In this document: in pieces, positions 32,642 through 50,646 of the stretch
Numbering within the stretch: position 1 is the first letter of the stretch
How the letters are laid out: each line of letters opens with the position of its first letter
NCBI GenBank assembly: GCA_003388555.1
Contig: QQVD01000004.1
Coordinates: 1-64,000 of the forward strand
DNA length: 64,000 nucleotides
Reading direction: 5' to 3'
Origin: Acidobacteriota bacterium
GTDB taxonomy: Bacteria; Acidobacteriota; Thermoanaerobaculia; Multivoradales; Multivoraceae
Notes under the pieces: generated by a model
Database searches by the model: none
Told to the model about the DNA's origin: nothing
What the model saw: only the letters and a program-made list of their open reading frames with translations
Position numbers and translations under genes: made by a program

Positions 32642-33698
32642 CGCTCTTCCGCCGCGCCAGCACCAGGGCGATCCACTCTTCGCGCTGCGCGGTCTCGACG
32701 CACTCGAGGCCGAGGTCGCGCCAGCGTCCCTCGATCTCCTGCCGCTGCTCGCTCAGCACGCCGCTGAGCAGCAGCTCGCCGCCGTCGGCCAGGGCCGCCG
32801 CGATGGCCGCCTCCTGGCCCTCGATGCGATGAGGCAGCACGTTCACGGCCACCAGCTCGAAGCCGCCGCGAGCGCTCTCCCCGAGACACGCCACGGTGCC
32901 GCAGACCAGTTGCAGCGGCAGCCGGTTGCGCTCGGCGTTGCGTGCGGCGACGAAGCTCGAGCAGGGATCGATCTCCACCCCCAGAGCGGCACGGGCGCCG
33001 AGCCGCCGCGCCACCAGACAGAGGATGCCCGATCCCGAGCCGACATCGAGCAGGCGCGCTCCCTCGAGACGGCGCTGCTCGAGCAGGTCGACCATCAACC
33101 GGGTGGTGGGATGGCTGCCGGTACCGAAGGCCTGCTCGGCCGGCAGCAGGAGACGGTGGCGCTGCCGCGCGCCCGCACCCTCGGGCGGCAGAGCACGATC
33201 GCCGGCATCCGCCAGCCCGGCCGCCTCGGCCGGCTCGTCGGGATCGCGCGGATCGAAGACGAAGCGGGCGGTCGTGATCGGCTGCGCCCTGGCGCGGTAC
33301 TCCGCCAGCCAGTCGCGCGGCGGCAGCTCGGCGACACCGACGATCCGACAGCAGCTCGCCTCGTCGCCGAGACCGTCCAGCGCTGCCCGCGCCCGCTCGC
33401 GGAGCCCCTCCTCGCCGCCGGGCCCCAAGGGCGGGAAGATCGCCTCCAGCGGCAGCCGGTCGCCGCGGGCCTCGAGGCGCTCGGCGAGCAGACCTCCGGC
33501 CGGCTGCACGCCGAGGCAGCCGATCTCGAACAGTCGCGCCGCGGCGTCGTCCTCCCAGCGAGCGTCGACCTCGAACCGCAGCGCCAGGTGGCCGCAGCCC
33601 GCCTGGGCTCCGCGGTTGGGTGACGCGCCCGCGCCGACCGCGGCGCTCGACCGCCGTCCTCGCCGACTCAGCGGAACAGCTCCTTCACCTTTCCCCAC
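32631..33698 (-). CDS. prmA: ribosomal protein L11 methyltransferase
   Basis: Class I SAM enzyme that trimethylates L11. The 355-residue reading has [32 protein letters not shown], the SAM loop [15 protein letters not shown], the acidic [16 protein letters not shown] and the catalytic-site [10 protein letters not shown] (NVLP where many have NILA). Start is unsure: GTG 33698 overlaps dnaJ by 31 bases with poor spacing to its AGAGG, while a CTG at 33671 would overlap the dnaJ stop as CTGA with AAGGAG eight bases upstream. Confidence 0.92.
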
Positions 33699-34786
33699 AC
33701 CCTCTTGCGCCCCGAGCCGACGCGCTCACCGCCGATCTCCGCCAGGCGCTCGAGCAGCTCGCGCTCCTCCTCGCCGACCTCCTTCGGCGACGGCACGTGC
33801 AGGGCGATCTGCACCACGTGGTTGCCGCGGCCGCTGCGACCGAGTCGCGGGATGCCGTCACCGCGCAGCACGAAACGCTGGCCGGGCTGGCTGCCGGCGG
33901 GGACCTCGAGCTCGCGACGACCGTGCAGGGTGTCGACCTGGAGGATGCCGCCGAGCACCGCCTGCGGGTAGCCGATCAGCTCGAGGGTGTAGACGTCGGC
34001 GCCCTGCCGGGCGAATCGCTCGTGCTCCTCGACGTGCACCACCACGAAGAGATCTCCCGGCGGCCCGCCGCGCAGACCGTGCTCGCCCTCACCGGCGAGA
34101 CGCAGCCGAGCCCCGGTGTCGACCCCGGGCGGGATCGTCACCTGGATCGAGCGTTCCTTCTCGACCCGGCCCTGACCCTGGCACTCGCTGCACGGGTCGC
34201 TGATCACCTGACCCTGGCCCTGGCACTGCGGGCAGGTGCGAGCCACGGTGAAGAAGCCCTGGGTGAAACGCACCTGACCGCGGCCGGCGCACCCGGCACA
34301 CGTCTTCGGCGCCTCGCCGCCGGCCGAGCCGCTGCCCGAGCACCTCTCACAGCTCTCGAGGCGCGGGATGCGCAGCTCCGGCTCACAACCAAAAGCCGCC
34401 TCCTCGAAGGTGATCTGCAGGTCGTAGCGCAGGTCGGCGCCGCCCATGGCGCCACCGCGCCCGCGCCGCGGCCGCCCCTGACCGAACAGGTCGCCGAAGC
34501 CGAAGAGGTCGCCGAGGATGTCCGAGAAGTCGGTGAAGGCCGAGGGATCGAACCCGCCGGCGAAGCCGCCGCCGGAATGGCCGAACTGGTCGTAGCGTGC
34601 GCGCTTCTCGGGGTTCGAGAGCACGGAGTACGCCTCTGCGGCCTCCTTGAACTTCTCCTCCGCCTCCTTGTCGCCGGGGTTCTTGTCCGGGTGGAACTGG
34701 ACCGCCAGCCTGCGGTAGGCGGACTTGATCGCCTTGACGTCGGCGTCGCGCTCGACCCCGAGCACTTCGTAGTAGTCACGCTTCAC
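33668..34786 (-). CDS. dnaJ: chaperone DnaJ
   Basis: Type I Hsp40 co-chaperone that hands clients to DnaK and stimulates its ATPase. The 372-residue product has the J domain ([14 protein letters not shown], with the HPD triad in [11 protein letters not shown]), a Gly/Phe region ([11 protein letters not shown]), four zinc repeats ([32 protein letters not shown]) and the C-terminal substrate domain. The GTG at 34786 has GGAGAG seven bases upstream. About 180 bases separate it from dnaK. Confidence 0.97.
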
Positions 34787-34966
34787 GACACTCTCCGGAT
34801 GCGTCCGTGCACGACGGGCGCGGCGCCCGTGGTGGGCGGAGGACGACGCGCACGGCCCGGCCCAGACCGCTGAGCGCGCTTCCCGAGGCCGACCCGGGGC
34901 GACGCGAACCGCCGCCCGCGAGGTCCCGACGGCCTCCGCGCGCCGCTGGCGCCGGAGCCGGGGACG

Positions 34967-36787
34967 CTACTCGTTGGCCTCGTCCAACATCAGGTTCGAC
35001 AGCAGGCGCGAGATCGAGTTCAGATCGAACATCGCCGCCTCCATGTCCACTCGGTCCTCGCTGCCCAGCGCGGTGCGCGCCTGGCCGAGGACCTCCTTGA
35101 CTCGCTTGCGGTCCGAGTCGCGCAGTGCTTCGCCGAACTGCTCGAGGACCTTCTCGTTGGTGTAGACCATGCCTTCGAGCCGGTTGCGCACGCGGCGCAG
35201 CTCGCGCCGTTCGCGGTCGGCCTTGGCGTAGTCGGTCGCCTCCTGGACCAGGCGGTCGACCTCCTGCTGGCTCAGTCCGCTCGCCGGGCTGATCTGGATC
35301 GTCTGCTGGTGATTCGTCGCCATGTCGCGCGCCGACACCGTGTGGATGCTGTTCGAGTCGATCGAGAAGGTGACTTCGATCTGCGGCACGCCCTTCGGCG
35401 CCGGCGCCACGCCGACCAGCTCGATCTTGCCCAGCGAGCGGTTGTCAGCCGCCAGCTCGCGCTCTCCCTGCAGCACGTGGATCTCCACCGTGTCCTGGTT
35501 GTCGACGACGGTGGTGAAGATCTGCGACATCTTGGTCGGGATCGTCGAGTTGCGCTCGATCAGCCGGGTGAACAGACCGCCCTGGGTCTCGATGCCGAGC
35601 GACAACGGGGTGACGTCGAGCAGCACGACGTCCTTGATGTTGCCCTGCAGGATGCCGCCCTGGATGGCGGCGCCCATCGCGACGACCTCGTCGGGGTTGA
35701 TGTCCGAGTTCGGCTCGCGCTGGAAGAGCTCCTTGACGATCCGGTGCACCATCGGCATCCGCGTCTGGCCGCCCACCAGCAGCACCTCGTCGATCTGACT
35801 CGGCGCCAGCCCGGCCTGCTCCAGCGCGTCGAGACATGGCCCGCGGGTCCGCTCGACCAGATCGCGCACGATCTCCTCGAAGTGGCCGCGGGTGAGGCTG
35901 CGCGACAGGTGCCGCGGACCGTGGTCGTCGGCCGAGATGAAGGGCAGGTTGATCGGCGCCTCCTCGCTGACCGACAGCTCGCACTTGGCGCGTTCCGCGG
36001 CCTCCTTGAGGCGCTGCAGGGCCATGCGATCGCTGCGCAGGTCGATCGAGGTCTCCTTCTGGAACTCCTCGACCAGCCAGTCCATGATCCGGCGGTCGAA
36101 GTCCTCGCCGCCCAGATCCGGGTCGCCGTTGGTCGCCTTGACCTCGAAGATCCCCTGCGACAGCTCCATGATCGAGATGTCGAAGGTGCCGCCTCCGAGA
36201 TCGAAGACCGCGATGTTCTCCGAGCCGTCACGGCGGTCGAGCCCGTAGGCGAGGGCGGCGGCGGTCGGCTCGTTGATGATCCGCAGCACCTCGAGACCGG
36301 CGATCCGGCCGGCGTCCTTGGTCGCCTGGCGCTGCGAATCGTCGAAGTAGGCCGGCACCGTGACGATCGCCTCCTCGATGCGCTCGTCGAGGATCTCCTC
36401 GGCAAACGAACGCAGCTCCTGCAGGATGATCGCTGAGATCTCCTCCGGGCTGTACGAACGGTCGCGGATGCGGATCTTCACGTCGCCGTTGGGAGACTCG
36501 ATCAGCGGATACGGCAGATGCACGTCGAGCGCCCGCTGCACGTGCGGGTCGTTGAACTTGCGGCCGATCAGGCGCTTGACCGCGAACACCGTGTTCTGGG
36601 GATTGGTGATCGCCTGGCGCTTGGCGATCTGACCGACGAGCCGGTCGCCGTCCTCGGCGAAGGCGACGATGGAGGCGGTGGTCCGGCTGCCCTCCCGGTT
36701 GGCGAGCACCCGGGGTGCGGCGACTCCTTCGACGACTGCCACGCAGCTGTTCGTCGTGCCGAGGTCGATGCCGAGAATCTTGCTCAC
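34967..36787 (-). CDS. dnaK: chaperone DnaK (Hsp70)
   Basis: ATP-driven chaperone. The 606-residue product has the nucleotide-binding domain ([61 protein letters not shown]) and the substrate domain ([42 protein letters not shown]). It ends soon after the helical lid at LMLDEANE, without the Gly-rich acidic tail that often closes bacterial DnaK. The GTG at 36787 has AGGAAG upstream. Order grpE-dnaK-dnaJ is conserved. Confidence 0.97.
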
Positions 36788-36835
36788 CGAGTCTTCCTGG
36801 CCGGCTCACCGGCGCCTTCACATCCGGCGGGGCGG

Positions 36836-37678
36836 TCAGCTCCCCGCGTCCGCGTCGTCGTCGAGCGGCTCGTCGAACGCGCCGTTCACTTCGTCGTCGC
36901 TCGCGGAATCTCCCGCCTCGTCGCGTGCCGCCTTCCTGGCATTCCTGGCGGATTCCGACGGAACCGCCACGACGACCATCGCCGCGCGCAACAACCGATC
37001 GTGCAGGGTATAGCCACGCTGGTACTCGTCGACAACAGTAGCAGTCGCGACCTCGTCGTCCTCCACCCGGGAAACCGCTTCGTGCACCGACGGGTCGAAG
37101 CGCTCGCCCACCGCGGTGATGGGCTCGACTCCGGCACGCTCCATGATGCCCTCGATCTGCTTCAGGATCATCTCGACACCTCGCTTGAGATCGTCGAGAT
37201 CTCCGTCGGCCTCCAGAGCGCGAGTCAGATTGTCGACTACCTGGAGGCAGTCGCGCAACACGCCCTCGGCGGCGTAGCGCTTCTCGTCCTGCCGGCTGCG
37301 CTCGGTGCGACGGCGGAAGTTCTCGTAGTCGGCCAGGGCGCGCAGGGCCCGGTCCTTCTCCTCCGCCAGTCGCCCTTCGAGCTCCTGGACGCGCCGCGAC
37401 ATCTCCTCGAGCTCGGCGGAGGCGGCTCCGGCCACCTTCGCGGGCCGCTCCGACTCCTGCCGATGAGCGGTCGGCGCCTCGGCGTCGCCTACGCTCGCCG
37501 CCTGCGCGGTCTCTGCGGACTCGGCTTCCGGATGGTGGCGCGCACCGACCCGGGCGTCCACGGCCTCGAGCGCCTCGCGCATGAGGGTCTCGGGGTCCGA
37601 GTCGGAGTCGTCTTCGAGATCGAGATCGTAGACGTCCTCGTCCTCTTCGACGGCGTCGTTGTGGGGATCCTGGTTCAT
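36836..37678 (-). CDS. grpE: nucleotide exchange factor GrpE
   Basis: Releases ADP from DnaK. The 280-residue product is longer than usual: about 115 acidic and low-complexity residues (EEDEDVYDLDLEDD) precede the coiled coil (ELEEMSRRVQELEGRL) and the core RALADYENFRRRTERSRQD, ERFDPSVHEAVSRVEDDE and GYTLHDRLLRAAMVVVA. An acidic tail (FDEPLDDDADAGS) follows. The ATG at 37678 starts the acidic region; no clear Shine-Dalgarno is seen. First gene of the chaperone run after hrcA. Confidence 0.94.
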   Translation of the reverse strand: MNQDPHNDAVEEDEDVYDLDLEDDSDSDPETLMREALEAVDARVGARHHPEAESAETAQAASVGDAEAPTAHRQESERPAKVAGAASAELEEMSRRVQELEGRLAEEKDRALRALADYENFRRRTERSRQDEKRYAAEGVLRDCLQVVDNLTRALEADGDLDDLKRGVEMILKQIEGIMERAGVEPITAVGERFDPSVHEAVSRVEDDEVATATVVDEYQRGYTLHDRLLRAAMVVVAVPSESARNARKAARDEAGDSASDDEVNGAFDEPLDDDADAGS

Positions 37679-38083
37679 GGCACTGGATTGGACCGCTCGA
37701 GCGCGGCCGGGGCAAGGATCGGCAGCATCCCGTCGGCCCACTGCGGTCGACGAACGCCGCTGCGGGTCGGGGTCCGGAACGAAGAGATCGCCGGCGCAGG
37801 CGCGGCCGCACCAGGCGAGCGGACACCCGTCGCGCCACTCCCTCTCCAGTCGCGCGGCGGAACCGCTCGGCGATTCCTTCGCGCGAAAATACCAGAGCCG
37901 GCAGCCGCTCGGCCAGTCGCCCGGAAGAGAAGGTCAGGAGCGACCCCTTGGCCTGGCCGCAACCGCCAGCAGCCGGACGAGCCTTGCCTAGCGCCACCGG
38001 CGCACGCCGACGGGGATCCTGCGGCCGCCGACCGTCGCGGCAGCGGCCTCAGATCCGCTTCGAGGAGCTCGCACCGGGCGGGC
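37679..38083 (-). other. intergenic region between hrcA and grpE
   Basis: No gene is supported in these 405 bases. It holds the only A/T run of the region, GAAAATA, read as TATTTT on the minus strand (37891-37886), which may be the -10 of a grpE-dnaK promoter about 200 bases upstream of grpE. The HrcA operator CIRCE (TTAGCACTC with its inverted copy) is not visible. Confidence 0.5.
37886..37891 (-). promoter_or_regulatory. possible -10 element upstream of grpE
   Basis: TATTTT on the minus strand is the closest match to TATAAT in the gap. A TGGCCG hexamer lies 18 bases upstream, a weak -35. A sigma-32-type promoter was not recognised. Confidence 0.3.
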
Positions 38084-39205
38084 TCACAGCGTCCCCTCGA
38101 GAGCCGCGGTCAGGCGATCGCCGAGATAGTCGACCAGCGGGATCAGCTTGCCGTACTCCATGCGCGAGGGACCGAAGAGACCGATGCCTCCCACCGGCCT
38201 GCCCTCGACCAGGCAGCCCTTGACGATGAGCGAGAAGTCGAGGTCCGAGGTGAGGTCGCTCTCCTCGCCGATGTAGACACGCACCGCCTCACCTTCGATG
38301 CAGCGCCCGAGCAGCGCAGCGACCCGAGCCTTGTCCGAGAAGGTGTCGAAGAGGCGCCGGACTCGCCCGAGGTCGGAGAGCTCCGGCAGCCCGAGCAGGG
38401 CCTCGGTGCCCTGCACCGCGAGGTGGGGCGCCGATTCGACGTCGAGGCCCTGTTGGGCGAGTCGGATCGCCCGCCCCAGCAGCTGGTCGACCTGCGCCCG
38501 CCCGTCCGCCAGGCTGCTCAGCAGGCGGCGCCGGATCTCGGCGATCGAGTGGCCGGCGAAGGTCTCGCTGACGAAGTTCGACAACCGGATCAGCTCTTCG
38601 CGGGCGATCTCTTCCTCGACACGCACCACCTTGTTGTCGACGAAACCGTTCGCCGAGACCACGACGCAGAGCACCTTGTTGCCGGTCAGGGGCACGAACT
38701 CGATCCGTTCGACCGCCGTCTGCGCCACCTCCGGCGTCACCACGATCCCGACCTGCGAGCTGAGCTCGGAGAGCAGCTGAGACGCGAGGCTGGTGAGCTC
38801 GTCCTGATCGGCGCCGCCGCCGCTCAGCTCGGCGTCGATGAGTCGCATCGCGGCGGGCGAGGGAGACTCGGCCTTCATCAACGAGTCGATGAACAGATGG
38901 TACCCCTGCGTCGTCGGTACCCGGCCGGCCGAGGCGTGCGGCTGGCGCAGGTAGCCCATCTCCTCCAGATCCGCCATCGTGTTGCGGATGCTGGCCGAGG
39001 ACAGCGACAGCACCCGGTCCTTGGCCAGCCGTCGCGAGCTCACCGGCTCGGCGGTGAGCAGGTACTGCTCGACGACACCGCGCAGGATCTCGCGATCGCG
39101 ATCGCTCAGGGTCTGGGCGCTGTCGGAGCTGAGGTTGCTGTCGGTACTCTCGCCCACGGCGTGCTCTTGCGAACCGGAGCGCCGGCGACGGACGCGTCGC
39201 CGCAC
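38084..39205 (-). CDS. hrcA: heat-inducible repressor HrcA
   Basis: Winged-helix repressor of chaperone operons in many bacteria. The 373-residue reading has the DNA-binding part LSDRDREILRGVVEQYLLTAEPVSSRRL in segments, SSASIRNTMADLEEMGYLRQPHASAGRVPT, and the C-terminal regulatory domain with IGEESDLTSDLDFSLI and IGLFGPSRMEYGKLIPLVDYL. The GTG at 39205 is the longest start; a GTG about 16 codons in (GESTDS) is possible. Leads the hrcA-grpE-dnaK-dnaJ run and is divergent from the MglA-like gene. Confidence 0.95.
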   Translation of the reverse strand: MRRRVRRRRSGSQEHAVGESTDSNLSSDSAQTLSDRDREILRGVVEQYLLTAEPVSSRRLAKDRVLSLSSASIRNTMADLEEMGYLRQPHASAGRVPTTQGYHLFIDSLMKAESPSPAAMRLIDAELSGGGADQDELTSLASQLLSELSSQVGIVVTPEVAQTAVERIEFVPLTGNKVLCVVVSANGFVDNKVVRVEEEIAREELIRLSNFVSETFAGHSIAEIRRRLLSSLADGRAQVDQLLGRAIRLAQQGLDVESAPHLAVQGTEALLGLPELSDLGRVRRLFDTFSDKARVAALLGRCIEGEAVRVYIGEESDLTSDLDFSLIVKGCLVEGRPVGGIGLFGPSRMEYGKLIPLVDYLGDRLTAALEGTL

Positions 39206-39219
39206 CCGATCCGGTCACG

Positions 39220-39225
39220 ATCCTA
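39220..39225 (-). promoter_or_regulatory. possible -10 element of hrcA
   Basis: TAGGAT on the minus strand, 14 bases before the hrcA GTG. Same hexamer as upstream of tatA and pilT; no good -35 seen. Confidence 0.35.
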
Positions 39226-39371
39226 CCAGCGACCGGATGGTCACCCGTGCTCTCGACGGCCGGCGACGACCGGTCCGGCGCCGGGTGCCGGCCCTCGGCG
39301 CCGTTCGCAAGTCCCTGGCTCCCTGCGGCTTGCGGCCGACCGCGCAGGCACCGGCGTCGACGGCGCGTCTG

Positions 39372-39400
39372 TTGCCCCCGCCCCTTGCAACTGGTAGCCT
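39372..39400 (+). promoter_or_regulatory. candidate promoter of the MglA-like gene
   Basis: TTGCCC (39372-39377), a 17-base spacer and TAGCCT (39395-39400). The start codon is at 39498, giving a leader of about 90 bases. Confidence 0.55.
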
Positions 39401-39497
39401 CCTCGGTTGGACCGGGAGCCGGCTGCTGGTGGCGCCACGGCCGGCGGCGCCTGTCCGTCGGATCCCTCCGGCCACAGTCCTTCTACGAGACCGCCGC

Positions 39498-40655
39498 GTG
39501 GTTTTCTTCAACTACAGCACCATGCAGATGGCGGCCAAGATCGTGTACTACGGTCCTGGTCTGTGCGGGAAGACCACCAACCTGCAGCACATCTACAACC
39601 GCACGAGCAACGACTCGCGCGGCGAGATGGTCTCGCTCGAGACGGACACCGATCGCACCCTCTTCTTCGATCTGCTGCCGATCGACGTCGGCACGATCCA
39701 GGGGTTCAACACCCGCATCCAGCTCTACACGGTGCCGGGTCAGGTCTTCTACAACACCACCCGCAAGCTGGTGCTCAAGGGCGTCGACGGTGTCGTGTTC
39801 GTCGCCGACTCGCAGCGGGCGATGCGCAACACCAACATCGAGTCGTTCTCCAACCTCGAGCAGAACCTGGCGGAGATCGGTCTCTCGGTGAAGGAGGTGC
39901 CGCTCGTCCTGCAGTACAACAAGCGGGACCTGCGCGACATCCTCAGCGTCGAGGAGCTGAACGAGACCCTCAACCGCGAAGGCTGGCCCTACTTCGAGGC
40001 TTCCGCCCTGCAGGGCGACGGCGTCTTCGAGACCCTCAAGGGGATCTCGAAGCTCACCCTGCTGAGCCTCAAGCGCCGCATCGCCGAGATGCAGGCGAAG
40101 TCGTCGCCGGCCGGCAAGGCGGCGCCGCAGCAACCTCCTCAGCAGCAGGAGAAGCAGCCACAGCGGCCAGCGCGTGCTGCCGCGGCGGCGGCGAAGCCGG
40201 AGGCGAAGGCACCGCCAGAGCCGGCCCCGACGCCTCCGCCGGCCGAGACGGCCGAAGCCCTCGCCGGCGCCGACCGCGCCGGCCGGCGACCCAAGGTGGA
40301 CATCCTCGCCGAGCTCGAGAAGATCCGCCGCCAGGCGCGGCAGGGAACCGCCCGCGAGCCCCGCGGCGGCGACGACAGCGCCACCGCGGGCGCCACCAGC
40401 GCCGACCGGTCGCCGGAAGGGGCGGAACGGCCGGCGGTCCAGATCAACGGCGATCGAGAGATCGAGCACGAGCTGCAGCTCTCCGTGCCGCGCCCCGACC
40501 TGATCCGGGCTCGCCGGGTCAGCGTCAGCTTCCGCATCGAGGACGAGCAGAGCGAGATCGTCGACAGCGTGGTGCAGAACTTCGACGTCGCCGACCCGGC
40601 CGACCTCGAGCACCTGCTGCTCCGCCTCAGCATCGCCTTGCGCAGCGACGGCTGA
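39498..40655 (+). CDS. mglA: MglA-like small GTPase with extra C-terminal region
   Basis: Ras-like GTPase of the bacterial MglA family, which sets cell polarity and controls motility in Myxococcus. Residues about 1-195 are a full GTPase: FFNYSTMQMAAKIVYYGPGL, P loop GPGLCGKTTN, switch II TVPGQVFYNTTRK, NKRD and the ASALQGDGV loop. Unusually, 190 more residues follow: a Pro/Ala/Gln-rich linker (about 200-290), then a compact region (EHELQLSVPRPDLIRARRVS, SFRIEDEQSEIVDSV) ending in a Leu-rich helix. Standard MglA stops near 195. Start GTG 39498 gives the family N-terminus. No MglB gene is adjacent. Confidence 0.88.
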   Translation: MVFFNYSTMQMAAKIVYYGPGLCGKTTNLQHIYNRTSNDSRGEMVSLETDTDRTLFFDLLPIDVGTIQGFNTRIQLYTVPGQVFYNTTRKLVLKGVDGVVFVADSQRAMRNTNIESFSNLEQNLAEIGLSVKEVPLVLQYNKRDLRDILSVEELNETLNREGWPYFEASALQGDGVFETLKGISKLTLLSLKRRIAEMQAKSSPAGKAAPQQPPQQQEKQPQRPARAAAAAAKPEAKAPPEPAPTPPPAETAEALAGADRAGRRPKVDILAELEKIRRQARQGTAREPRGGDDSATAGATSADRSPEGAERPAVQINGDREIEHELQLSVPRPDLIRARRVSVSFRIEDEQSEIVDSVVQNFDVADPADLEHLLLRLSIALRSDG

Positions 40656-45096: not shown

Positions 45097-45798
45097 TCAG
45101 CTGCGCCGCACGGTCACCGTCATCGGCGCCCTCAGCACCTTCACCAGCTCCTTGATCTGCTTCTCCAGAGCGCTGTGCGAGCGCTCGAGGGCGGCGACCC
45201 GGCCTTCGACGCCGCCTCCGCGCGCCGGTCTCTCGGCGCCGGTCCGAGCGGCGCTCTGGGCCTTCGGCTTGCGACCGCGCTTGCTGTTGCGACGCAGCTC
45301 CTGGAAGACCTCGACCGCCTCCGGGTAGTAGCGGCGGGTGCGGCCCTCGCCCTCGTGCGGCAGCTTGTCGAGGTGCAGCTTCACGTAGCGCAGCAGCGTC
45401 GGGTACGAGATGTTGGTGCGACGACCGATCTCCTGGAGCGAGAGCAGCCCCTCGCCGCCACCGCCCCTGCCCGCCCTGCTCGCGGAGGTCTTCTTCCTGC
45501 CCGCTCCGGCGCCGCGCGTGCGCCGCTTCTTCCCCGTCTTCTTCTTGGAGGACTTCTTCTTCGAGGTCTTCTTCTTCGAGGTCTTCTTCTTGCCGCCACC
45601 GCGCCGGCTGATGCCCTCCTCCTTCAGGCGCTCGAACACCGCCAGCGCCTCCGGGTAGTAGCGCTGCTTGCGGCCTTTGCCCTCCGAGGGGATCTGGTCG
45701 GCATGGAGCTTCTTGTACTTTTGCAACGTCGGCATCGAGATGCCGGTGCGCTTCGACACCTCGGTGAGGGTCAACAACTCGCTTCGCTCAGGACTCAT
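45097..45798 (-). CDS. tandem MerR-like HTH protein with lysine-rich linker
   Basis: I know no named family with this layout. The 233-residue product has two related helix-turn-helix units: residues about 8-62 (LTEVSKRTGISMPTLQKYKK) and 135-190 (LQEIGRRTNISYPTLLRYVK). About 30 of 54 aligned positions agree, including RYYPEA in each. They are joined by a linker of repeated KKKTSKKK units and Arg/Gly, like a histone H1 tail. A C-terminal coiled coil (RVAALERSHSALEKQIKELV) suggests dimers. Likely a DNA-binding or nucleoid-associated protein. Start ATG 45798 follows a good promoter at 45898-45926. Confidence 0.85.
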   Translation of the reverse strand: MSPERSELLTLTEVSKRTGISMPTLQKYKKLHADQIPSEGKGRKQRYYPEALAVFERLKEEGISRRGGGKKKTSKKKTSKKKSSKKKTGKKRRTRGAGAGRKKTSASRAGRGGGGEGLLSLQEIGRRTNISYPTLLRYVKLHLDKLPHEGEGRTRRYYPEAVEVFQELRRNSKRGRKPKAQSAARTGAERPARGGGVEGRVAALERSHSALEKQIKELVKVLRAPMTVTVRRS

Positions 45799-45897
45799 GG
45801 TGGGTCTACCTCGAAGGCACGCGACCGACGAGAAGACCCCGGCGATCGGCGAAAGAAGACAGGATGCGGATGGCACATTTCATCCGCCACGCCCTCA

Positions 45898-45926
45898 AGG
45901 CTACAGCCGAATAGAAAAGTTCACAA
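45898..45926 (-). promoter_or_regulatory. candidate sigma-70 promoter of the tandem HTH gene
   Basis: On the minus strand TTGTGA (45926-45921), a 17-base A/T-rich spacer and TAGCCT (45903-45898). The -10 is identical to the one before the MglA-like gene and the spacing is ideal. Confidence 0.6.
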
Positions 45927-46193: not shown

Positions 46194-46745
<552 letters not shown>

Positions 46746-47076
46746 CGGGAGCTCCGTGGAGGAAATGGGGGCGGCCGGCTGTCCTCGGGACGTCCCCTGA
46801 CGACCTCGACCCGGCCCGAAGTGGGACCGATGCAAGCCGAATACCACCCGCTGTCGCGTCGCGCCGACGCTCCGCTGCACTGTTTCGGTGACGGTGAAGC
46901 CCAAACTCGGTCGCATCCAACGGTCGAAACCCGCCGAGCCGGTGCCATTCCACGCCAAAACTAGTCTTTCTCTTGACGCGGAACGGCATATCCCTCGACA
47001 CGTTTGGTCAGCGGTGCCGCCGTCGGTCACCCGAGGGAGCCGCGACTGTCGTGCCCTGGACGGCGCCGGCAGCGCC
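46746..47076 (-). other. control region of the prepilin gene
   Basis: No gene in these 331 bases between the activator stop and the prepilin start. It contains the sigma-54 promoter at 46846-46831 and, 110-150 bases further upstream, an unusually A/T-rich patch (46955-46980, CCAAAACTAGTCTTTCTCTT) suited to bending or activator binding. A clear dyad for the activator was not found. Confidence 0.6.
46831..46846 (-). promoter_or_regulatory. sigma-54 (-24/-12) promoter of the prepilin gene
   Basis: Minus strand TGGTATTCGGCTTGCA. The invariant GG and GC are exactly ten bases apart and nine of twelve consensus positions (TGGCACG-N4-TTGCW) match, including the whole TTGCA. Predicted transcription start near 46820, giving a leader of about 75 bases. 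Confidence 0.75.
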
Positions 47077-50000
47077 TCACGATTCCGGGCGGGAGACTCC
47101 CAGCTGGCGGACGAGGTAGGACATCGCCTGGCGGGTGATGCCCAGCCTGCGGGCGGCTTCGGCCTGGTTACCGGAACACTCGGACAGCGCCCGTGCGAGC
47201 CGATCCCGCTTGATCCGCTCGAGCCACTCGTGCCAGGGCCCCTCGGCCTCGCGAGCCGACGACGCGCCGGCCAGTCCCAGGATGTCGGGCCCGATCTCGA
47301 CGGTGTCGGGCTCACAGAGCGCCAGGGCCCGTTGGACCGCTCCTCGCAGCTCACGGACGTTGCCCGGCCAGGAGTGACTCCGTAACGACTCGAGCGCCTC
47401 CGGCGACAGCCGGCGCTCGTCGCCCGCACCGGCGAGCTCGGCGAGAAACGTCTCGGCGAGCCGCACCGCGTCGTCGCCGCGCTCGCGCAGCGGCGGCAGC
47501 GTCACCACCGCGACGTTGAGCCGGAAGAGCAGGTCCTGCCGGAAAGCGCCCTCGCGCACCAGGGTCTCGAGGTCGCGGTGGGTCGCGGCGATGACTCGCA
47601 CGTCGACCCGGCGGATCGCGGTCTCGCCGACGCGGCGGATCTCGCCCTCCTGCAGCACCCGTAGCAGCATGCCCTGGGCGACCGGTGGCAGATCACCGAT
47701 CTCGTCGAGGAACACGGTGCCTCCTTCGGCGCTCTCGAAGACGCCGACGTGCTGCCGGTCGGCGCCGGTGAACGCGCCGCGGGCGTGACCGAACAGATCG
47801 GAGAGCAGCAGGGTCTCCGAAAGGGCAGCGCAGTTGACCGCGAGGAAGGGCGCCGCGGCGCGAGGCGACAGCCGGTGCACCGCTCGCGCCGCCAGCTCCT
47901 TGCCGGTTCCGGTCTCGCCGAGCACGAGCACCGGGATCTCGCCGCGGGCGAATCGCCGCAGCTGCCGCGTCGCCGCCAGCAGGGCAGGGCTGTCGCCGAC
48001 CATCTCCTCGAGCCGCCCGTCCCCTGGCGCACTGCCGCCAGAGCGCGCGCCGACGCCCGAAGGCGCGCCGATCCACTCGCACTGGCGCTCCACCGTCTCG
48101 ACCAGCACCCGGCAGGCGGCGGCGGAGGGTCCCCGCTCGAGCCGCCAGACGCCACAGCGGCCGTCGATCTCGACCGCATCCACCGCCTCGCCGGAGGCCG
48201 GAGCCGGCCCCTGGCGCAGCACCCAGCGGCGCGAGCTGCCCTGCAGCGTCACCCCGAGCTCGCTGCCGGGCAGCCGCTCGAACCATTCGCGCAGTGCCGA
48301 CTCGCTGGCTGGCGTCTGCTCGATGAGCTGCGCCAGGTGCTCCCACAGGGCCTCCCACCGACCGGACGGAGGCCGGCGCCCGGAGCCGTCTTCGTCACGT
48401 CGCTCAAGGCCGTTCGGCACCGCGGGGCGACTCTCGTCGCCCTCGCCACCGGCCAACGGCTCGGCCAGCCGGCCGGCGCCGCAGCCGACCAGGTGACGAG
48501 CAGCGCGAAGTCGCAGCTCGACGTCGACGATCTCGGGTGCGAGCCGGTGCACGAGCAGGACGAGTCGCGCCGCCCCGTGCGACTGCATCGAGCGGACCGC
48601 CGACGCGAGGAGCTCGCCGGTCGCGCCACCCGCTGCCACGGCGCGCCACAGCTCGCCCACTGCGCCTGGCGGACTGTCGCGCAGAGCCTCGGCCCGTCGC
48701 CCGGCCATCAGCCAGATCGCCGGGATCTCCTCCCGCTCCGCGGCCAGCGCCGGGATGCGGTCGATGCCCTGCAGCGCCTTTCCAGCAGCGGCTCCCTGAC
48801 CACGCAGACCGAGAGCCAGGGCGCGCAGCGCCGCCGGTTCGCCGGGATCGCAGATCAGCTCGCCGCTGCCGCACAGATCCGCCTCGACCGTGTCGAGGAC
48901 GTCCAGGCACTCGCCGAGCTCGCCGACGAGGAGATGCAGCCGAGCCCGGAGGATGCGGTCGTGCACGACGCCGCGACGGTTGTCCTGCGCCCGGCTCACC
49001 GCCTCGCAGCGTTCGACCAGGTCGGCGACCCCGTCGAAACGCCCACAGCGCATCCGGATGTCCGCCAGGTTGGCGAGGCAGAGTGAAGTGGCCACCGGCC
49101 CGTCGCAGCGCGACATCAGGCGGTGGGAGTGCTCGATCGCCCGCTCGGCCGCGGCGCGCTCGCCGGCCGCCCACCGCGCCGTCGCCAGATCGTTCCAAAG
49201 GCGCCCAGCCTCGAAGACGCGCAGCAGCCTCCGACTGCCGAGCGCCGACGAGATCTCCCGTGTCGCCTCGGCGGCGCGGCCGGAGAGCAGCAGGCGGGTG
49301 CCCTCGGCATGGTGCAACTGCCACGCGTGCTCCTCGGGTACGCCGTACGAGCGGGCCCTGTCGAGGTGCCTGGCGAAGCGTTCGGCATCGCCGAGATCGA
49401 GACGACCCCAGGCGGCGAGCAGGTGGGCGCGGCCGCGGTGGCGGCCACGTCCGGCGCGTAGCGAGCGGGCGATCCAGTCGCGCTGCCTCGTCCGGTCCTC
49501 GCGCGCCGCGAAGACCCTCTGTGCCACCTCGGCCAGCGCCAGGGTCTCCCTCGCTCCCAACGCTTCCCGCTCGAGGGCGAGCAGGGCGCGCTGGGCCCGG
49601 TGCAGCTCGCCGAGCTGGTAGAGGCAGGCGACGCCGTACATGCGTGCCCACACCCGGTCGAGTCGCCGGAAGCGATCCAGGGCGGCACGGAAGGCGCCCT
49701 GTGCGAACAGGGCACGGGCCTCCTCGTAGCGTTCCCGGTCGTTGACCGGCGGTGAACGCTCCCACGCCAGGGCGGCAGCGCGCCAGCGGCGCTCCAGGAA
49801 CAGCTCGCGCGGCGGGCGCAACCGCAGGGACGGCGACGGATGCCACAGGTCGCGGGCGTCCTCGGCCATCGCCAGGCGCTCGGCATCGGCTGCGTCCGAG
49901 CTGCGCGCCAGCAGCTCGCGCCGCCAGTGGCGCGGTCCGATGATGCGGGGCCGGCCGCTGATTGCCGAACTGGCGACCAGCGCCCGTCGGTGCTCGGCGT

Positions 50001-50646
50001 AGCGCTGCGACCACAGGAAATCGGCCAGCACGAGCAGTCTCCGCACCACCCGCTGGGGACGCACGTCGGTGAGCTCCTGGCCCCAGTCGGACTGCAGGCG
50101 GCGTGCGATCCGGCGCGCCTCGCCGCGCCCGGCGACGCTGTGCGAGCCGCCGAAGAGCATCTGCAGCAGCTCGCGCAGCAGCTGCTGAGCGAGTGGACCG
50201 CGGCGACCGTCGCGGTGCAGGGAGACGACGCTCCGCGCCGGCAGCCCCAGCAGCACACCGGGCCCGAGGGTCGCCTCTGCCCACGCCCCCATCTCCAGAT
50301 CCAGGCCGACCGAGCGCAGGTGGCCGAGCAGCGCCGCCCCCTGCAGCAGGAGGCCGAGGCGGTGGCGATCGGTCAGCCCCTGGCGCGCCGCCGCCAGCGG
50401 CTGCGCCGCGGGATCGGCCGCGGCGGCGAAGGCGGCATGCCGGATCGCGAGCGCGACACGCCCCCGCTCCGCGACAGCCCCGGGCGGCGGTGGCTCACGC
50501 CACGCTGGCCCGGCCGTGCCCACCCCTCGAGCCAAGACTCCCCCGATCGCCGCTGCGGGGCCTCCGAAGCACCACGACGCGACCCGCCCGGCCCTGCGCC
50601 GAGCACGGTCACGACACCGGTGGCGACGGTCGCTCCGCAGCTCCAA
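47077..50646 (-). CDS. sigma-54-dependent activator with large TPR-like sensory half
   Basis: AAA+ enhancer-binding protein that remodels sigma-54 RNA polymerase. The C-terminal third has Walker A GETGTGKE (about residue 910), the sigma-54 contact loop GAFTGA (about 957), Walker [12 protein letters not shown], the [20 protein letters not shown] segment and a Fis-type HTH ([20 protein letters not shown]). There is no receiver, GAF, PAS or FHA motif at the N-terminus. About 850 residues instead form helical Ala/Leu/Arg-rich repeats resembling TPRs (roughly 280-640). The longest reading starts at TTG 50646; a GTG at 50523 is an alternative. Directly upstream of the prepilin gene. Confidence 0.88.

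Follow-up and report, generated by a model that had tools for sequence, protein, structure and literature searches.

A tandem MerR-like winged-HTH protein with AT-hook-like motifs, a candidate architectural DNA-binding protein of an Acidobacteriota order

Introduction

The closest described systems are of two kinds. The first comprises MerR-like proteins: RacA of Bacillus subtilis, which has one winged HTH (wHTH) domain and binds as a symmetric dimer, and BldC of Streptomyces, whose MerR-like wing occupies an A/T-rich minor groove that is narrowed, with the heads packed side by side (PMC5859096). The second comprises H-NS, MvaT, Lsr2 and Rok: for bridging these need no more than an oligomerisation region, a linker that is flexible and mostly basic, and a DNA-binding domain that is either of the minor-groove/AT-hook type or a winged helix (PMC6936261).

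Here we describe a protein with two MerR-like wHTH units in tandem, encoded in a 64,000-nucleotide stretch of Acidobacteriota DNA (the window). Its likeness to RacA concerns the architectural use of a MerR-like wHTH without an effector domain together with a separate helical region, of which the fold and the helix are what the two share; RacA has one wHTH per chain, whereas the family of the window protein has two to four heads plus basic hooks. With BldC and RdfS it shares the MerR-like wHTH and, presumably, the joint action of multiple heads on DNA. BldC, however, is a 68 aa protein with one head and no coiled coil that oligomerises via the wHTH, whereas in the window protein the heads are joined by a linker and followed by a helix. 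The likeness to H-NS, MvaT, Lsr2 and Rok is drawn on the manner of working and not on sequence or fold; the order of the parts and the number of DNA-binding heads per chain differ. HMGA proteins possess AT-hooks and no HTH: the window family resembles them in its RGRPRK and GRPPGSK hooks, several of which occur per chain in some relatives, but the hooks play a secondary part in this family, and RGRKPK is the only one that the window protein has. The protein thus shares the MerR-type head, but it belongs to neither RacA nor BldC, and we file it under none of the proteins named here. In the open-access literature we found nothing on tandem MerR-like proteins with AT-hooks and, among the matches listed, nothing on nucleoid proteins of this Acidobacteriota class, which is weak evidence of novelty.

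Anatomy of the protein

The gene and the parts of its product are the following:

45097-45798, minus strand: gene of the tandem-HTH protein (233 aa), with the ATG start at 45798 and the stop at 45097-45099
45604-45780, minus strand: first wHTH unit, aa 7-65; matched by Pfam MerR_1 / HTH_17, 109 bits with the unit HMM, AlphaFold2 pLDDT of about 90
45454-45603, minus strand: linker, basic and disordered, aa 66-115; pLDDT mostly 44-46, net charge +23
45280-45453, minus strand: second wHTH unit, aa 116-173; Pfam HTH_17 (best stretch 118-167), MerR-type fold matches
45262-45279, minus strand: AT-hook-like RGRKPK, aa 174-179; its position after the last HTH unit is kept in many orthologues
45130-45210, minus strand: C-terminal helix, a probable coiled coil, aa 197-223; AlphaFold2 helix with pLDDT of about 83-86 over most of its length
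45100-45126, minus strand: conserved tail PMTVTVRRS, aa 225-233; its proline is invariant in alignment A1

The protein (pI 11.1) begins with MSPERSELLTLTEVSKRTGISMPTLQKYKK, and conservation among the orthologues starts just past the ATG at 45798. Two similar HTH units had been predicted, and they are indeed present: they are identical in 32 of 60 aligned columns, and their alignment scores 155 where the highest of 2000 shuffles reached 20, which rules out a chance likeness. Both are matched by the Pfam models HTH_17 and MerR_1, which exceed their cut-offs for the whole protein; the MerR_1 score of 30.5 bits (cut-off 21.6) establishes the presence of a MerR-type winged-HTH domain. The linker between the units (KKKTSKKKTSKKKSSKKKTGKK) includes a degenerate hook site, GGGKKK, and KKKTS repeats, the latter encoded at 45536-45591 by 3.7 tandem copies of a 15-bp unit; the linker's charge of +23 is spread over 50 residues. 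The second unit is followed by the RGRKPK motif, a short basic stretch and the helix 197-223, which is the sole further helix predicted by AlphaFold2 outside the HTH units. The coiled coil originally predicted to follow the HTH units therefore stands as far as this helix is concerned, while its coiling remains only probable.

Against the features of MerR regulators, the protein has the winged HTH but neither the adjacent dimerisation helix nor the effector domain. The Pfam and NCBIfam scans of the window protein found no effector or metal-binding domain at the C-terminus, where a tail of 10 residues follows the helix. In the structural model the last of the three helices of unit 1 runs to aa 66 and gives way to the disordered linker, so that the antiparallel dimerisation helix appears to be absent from its place right after the wHTH.

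Predicted structure and fold neighbours

The AlphaFold2 run on the window protein, which used five sequences, returned two wHTH units, the low-confidence linker (44-46) and the helix 197-223, with a pTM of 0.30 for the whole, at which the relative placement of the parts is undefined. Modelled alone, the second unit reached a pLDDT of 86.7 and a pTM of 0.69. The nearest solved structures of the unit model are MerR-type heads, such as those of HiNmlR, CarH, SoxR, CadR and CueR; its fold matches extend to RacA, Xis and BldC (chains 6ama and 6amk in the Foldseek matches), which are architectural proteins, and to the Par protein of plasmid pSK1. The RacA DNA-binding domain (5i44) matches with Z 6.9 over 59 aligned residues at an rmsd of 2.6; a Z of about 7 is modest and supports the fold class rather than any particular relative. 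By sequence, a single-sequence search found no close solved structure, and a profile search gave marginal matches only.

Most MerR-like wHTH proteins are regulators, and such proteins dominate the fold matches. The protein could be a conventional sequence-specific regulator: at a few promoters, for example its own or those of neighbouring genes, the fused heads would bind direct repeats as a pre-joined dimer, or as a covalent version of the head-to-tail pair of BldC, with the hooks and the Lys linker merely raising affinity. The lack of an effector domain and of a dimerisation helix adjoining the wHTH speaks against this, and together with the evidence given below leads us to regard a regulator as unlikely, though well worth keeping in view.

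The matches to RacA and pSK1 Par likewise recall a chromosome-anchoring or segregation protein of that kind, in which the heads would occupy centromere-like sites and the coiled coil and tail would bind a partner. The invariant proline and the strand-like character of the tail (P-x-x-V-T-x-x-R) resemble a docking peptide. The protein has two heads, however, rather than one, no membrane-targeting region was seen, and five of the 26 loci compared below (L084, L087 and L094-L096) either lack the tail or have it in altered form. We consider such an anchor improbable.

Conservation of the tandem layout and of the hooks

For the comparison of layouts the protein was read in 26 loci of the window's order. 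The original prediction had staked its reading on homologues keeping the second HTH, and at least two HTH units are found in 26 of 26 loci; with no effector domain and no adjacent dimerisation helix, this layout also bears out its view that the protein is not a standard MerR regulator. Members of the genus g2 have three units, and one genome (G010) has four. In a tree of 57 units over 59 columns, the first units are separated from the later ones by a single change, and the additional units of g2 fall among the later ones; branch support is weak because there are only 59 columns. From this separation the duplication looks old enough to predate the families of the order. A recent duplication in the window's own genome only was also considered and is unsupported, the split between first and later units being order-wide, albeit with a weak support value. 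In the four-HTH relative (L091, 7650-9290) the C-terminal part is an extended acidic repeat, EEAAAPEEAAAPEKAAAP, whereas the linkers of the family are usually basic.

All units carry the wing motif GxGRxxR[YF] with little or no variation. The recognition helices differ by head, with ISMPTLQ[RK]YKK in the first and ISYPTL.RYV in the later units, and this difference is kept across the order, as a regulator with a fixed composite site would predict. Such an operator is nevertheless hard to reconcile with two to four heads and with linkers that range from 9 to 86 aa in length and from 0 to 45% in K+R content across the 26 loci. The free variation of length and charge shows that the lysine blocks are one lineage's filling and not a mark of the family; the lysine linker that had been singled out is real in the window (net charge +23, 15-bp repeat) but is not conserved, and we dropped it as a defining feature.

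What is better conserved is an AT-hook core. GRP, within RGRPRK or a similar motif, follows the first HTH at a near-fixed distance in 20 of the 26 loci, and the six loci without it after unit 1 are exactly those of the window's own family: here the site reads GGG in the window and in G002 and is GAGRKK-like in g2, while RGRKPK or PGRKPK is retained after later units. Judged from these residues, the first hook has degenerated in that family, and RGRKPK has been kept behind the last HTH. In the parts outside the HTH units RGR[PK] was observed 42 times against 1.3 expected from composition shuffles, a comparison that ignores shared ancestry. With the Pfam AT_hook model, the hook fragment of the G028 orthologue scores 17.9 against a cut-off of 17.4, two fragments from family f5 score below the cut-off, and the window's RGRKPK gives no match. 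In f5 the hooks are multiplied, with GRPPGSK occurring three times (RRGRPPGSK) and with GRPPG repeats (GRPPGRPPGRPPG). The extra AT-hooks in several lineages count against the regulator. In one relative (L094, 7805-8698) overlapping GRPPGRPPGRPPG hooks follow one another behind the second HTH.

Genomic neighbourhood and promoter

The gene lies in a conserved order of genes: dnaJ-dnaK-grpE-hrcA, a gene for an Arf/Ras-like GTPase, nrdR, lon, thiL and the tandem-HTH gene, which is convergent with thiL and has a sigma-54 activator gene upstream on the same strand, an arrangement kept across the order. This strikingly constant neighbourhood points to a vertically inherited chromosomal locus. The conserved position beside the sigma-54 activator gene is also a point in favour of a regulator. 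Several neighbours have features of their own. The sigma-54 activator gene (47077-50646, minus strand) encodes a protein of 1189 aa with sigma-54 activator and Fis-type HTH domains, whose first ~880 residues have no Pfam match at E 1e-4. Between it and the tandem-HTH gene is a pilin-like gene (46194-46763, minus strand; prepilin methylation motif, E 9e-9), which is outside the conserved neighbourhood. The Arf/Ras-like small GTPase domain protein (~38955-40652, plus strand) lies between hrcA and nrdR and is conserved in 19 of 28 loci. The dnaJ-dnaK-grpE-hrcA cluster is at ~33671-39214 on the minus strand; no CIRCE site was found in the window with up to three mismatches allowed, and one is present in a single relative, L094.

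The proximity of dnaJ-dnaK-grpE-hrcA and lon raises the question of a heat-shock regulator of the HspR type, HspR being itself MerR-like, and there is a weak match to the NCBIfam HspR model (E 0.048). The score of that match is 13.7 against a cut-off of 105, no HAIR site occurs in the window or in the loci of relatives, and HrcA is already present. Being so far under the cut-off and with no HAIR site, this candidate was rejected; we give it only the slimmest chance.

The gene had also been credited with the best sigma-70-like promoter in the window, and this did not hold up. A consensus scan found no sigma-70 promoter in the region of the gene, and the putative one given by a matrix ranks tenth in the window:

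45886-45926, minus strand: putative sigma-70 promoter TTGTGA-17-TAGCCT, matrix score 5.8

In its relatives the situation differs: when both strands of each 8-17-kb locus are scored, the top sigma-70 match falls just upstream of the gene in 17 of the 26 loci, and these promoters are near-consensus with spacers of 16-18, as in TTGACA-17-GATAAT. The promoter of the window is weaker than the orthologue ones at the corresponding place. The near-consensus promoters suggest strong constitutive expression of the gene in the relatives. With their ordinary spacers and near-consensus boxes they have no need of MerR-type untwisting, a further argument against the regulator.

Distribution and loss

The genome that carries the window has one copy of the gene. 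A first search recovered it in 49 of 60 relatives, and a class-wide profile search found the family in 53 of 149 genomes, all 53 from the order to which the window belongs (53 of the 72 genomes sampled there, 0 of 77 elsewhere in the class). In a phylum sample of 297 genomes the matches were members of the order and two distant proteins from another family. A pattern-based genome scan, through which alone phyla beyond Acidobacteriota were covered, had four Acidobacteriota loci among the matches listed. Going by record titles, the named relatives fall in Acidobacteriota, one of them in Thermoanaerobaculia. A distant family of Acidobacteriota has two HARE-HTH proteins (L099, 601-1623; L100, 6909-7946) that combine one clear HTH unit (~65 bits) with a long charged region after it and differ in that the unit HMM recognises no second unit; the C-terminal HARE-HTH domain was found in L099, the one scanned.

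A mobile or phage origin was entertained, there being excisionase-like PHROG matches, and is unsupported: synteny is kept, and a search of plasmids, phages and viral contigs found no relative of the protein. At least four genomes have lost the gene at an intact locus (G003, G054, G033 and G083, each with both flanks on one contig), from which it follows that it is not essential order-wide; its dispensability also argues against the anchoring role. A further genome without the gene (G024) may reflect an assembly gap, since its contig stops at the upstream neighbour.

Proposed role in DNA architecture

The tandem layout, kept across the order, probably marks a chromosome-organising protein rather than an ordinary one-gene switch. 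The original suggestion of a DNA-bridging or nucleoid protein fits best: a bridging or coating protein would be built from just such components, namely several heads on a flexible basic chain, hooks and a helix at the C-terminus, and for this reason we prefer an architectural role to that of a regulator. We consider it somewhat more probable than an even chance that the tandem-HTH protein is an abundant architectural (nucleoid-associated) protein, which is multivalent and bridges or loops DNA. It would act as follows: each MerR-like wHTH would place its recognition helix in the major groove with the wing (GxGRxxRY) beside it; the hook after a unit (RGRPRK or RGRKPK) and the Lys/Arg-rich disordered linker would add contacts to the minor groove and the backbone; the flexible linker would let the two, three or four heads of a chain reach segments of DNA that adjoin or lie apart; and chains would be joined through the C-terminal helix into a particle with four or more DNA-binding heads. 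Such a particle could bridge, loop or coat DNA and would probably favour A/T-rich stretches. The computations directly give the folds of the wHTH units, the disorder of the linker, the helix, the conservation of the tandem layout and of the hooks, and the near-consensus promoters of the relatives; from these we infer the binding of DNA, oligomerisation, the A/T preference, bridging and abundance.

The two to four heads, the seemingly old duplication with its distinct recognition helices, the hooks, the pI of 11.1, the linker charge of +23, the modelled disorder and helix, the fold neighbours RacA, Xis and BldC, the promoters of the relatives, the single copy, the synteny and the lack of relatives in the plasmids, phages and viral contigs searched are all consistent with this architectural role. 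Counting against it are the loss of the gene in at least four genomes, the first hook of the window lacking GRP, the RGRKPK unmatched by AT_hook and the window's own promoter, which is not outstanding; moreover, with HU in three copies the cell is not short of nucleoid protein. A bolder form of the architectural reading is plausible, although we hold it to be short of an even chance: the protein would be a lineage-specific bacterial chromatin protein made of covalently joined tandem wHTH heads, two to four of them depending on the lineage, with hooks and a helical oligomerisation tail, and the main DNA-bridging or xenogeneic-silencing protein of the order. As a single-copy, syntenic, order-wide, multi-head protein with AT-hooks and, in its relatives, a near-consensus promoter, it is a strong and directly testable candidate, and the relatives with two, three or four heads, and with intact or degenerate hooks, are ready-made variants for examining how head number and minor-groove hooks tune DNA bridging.
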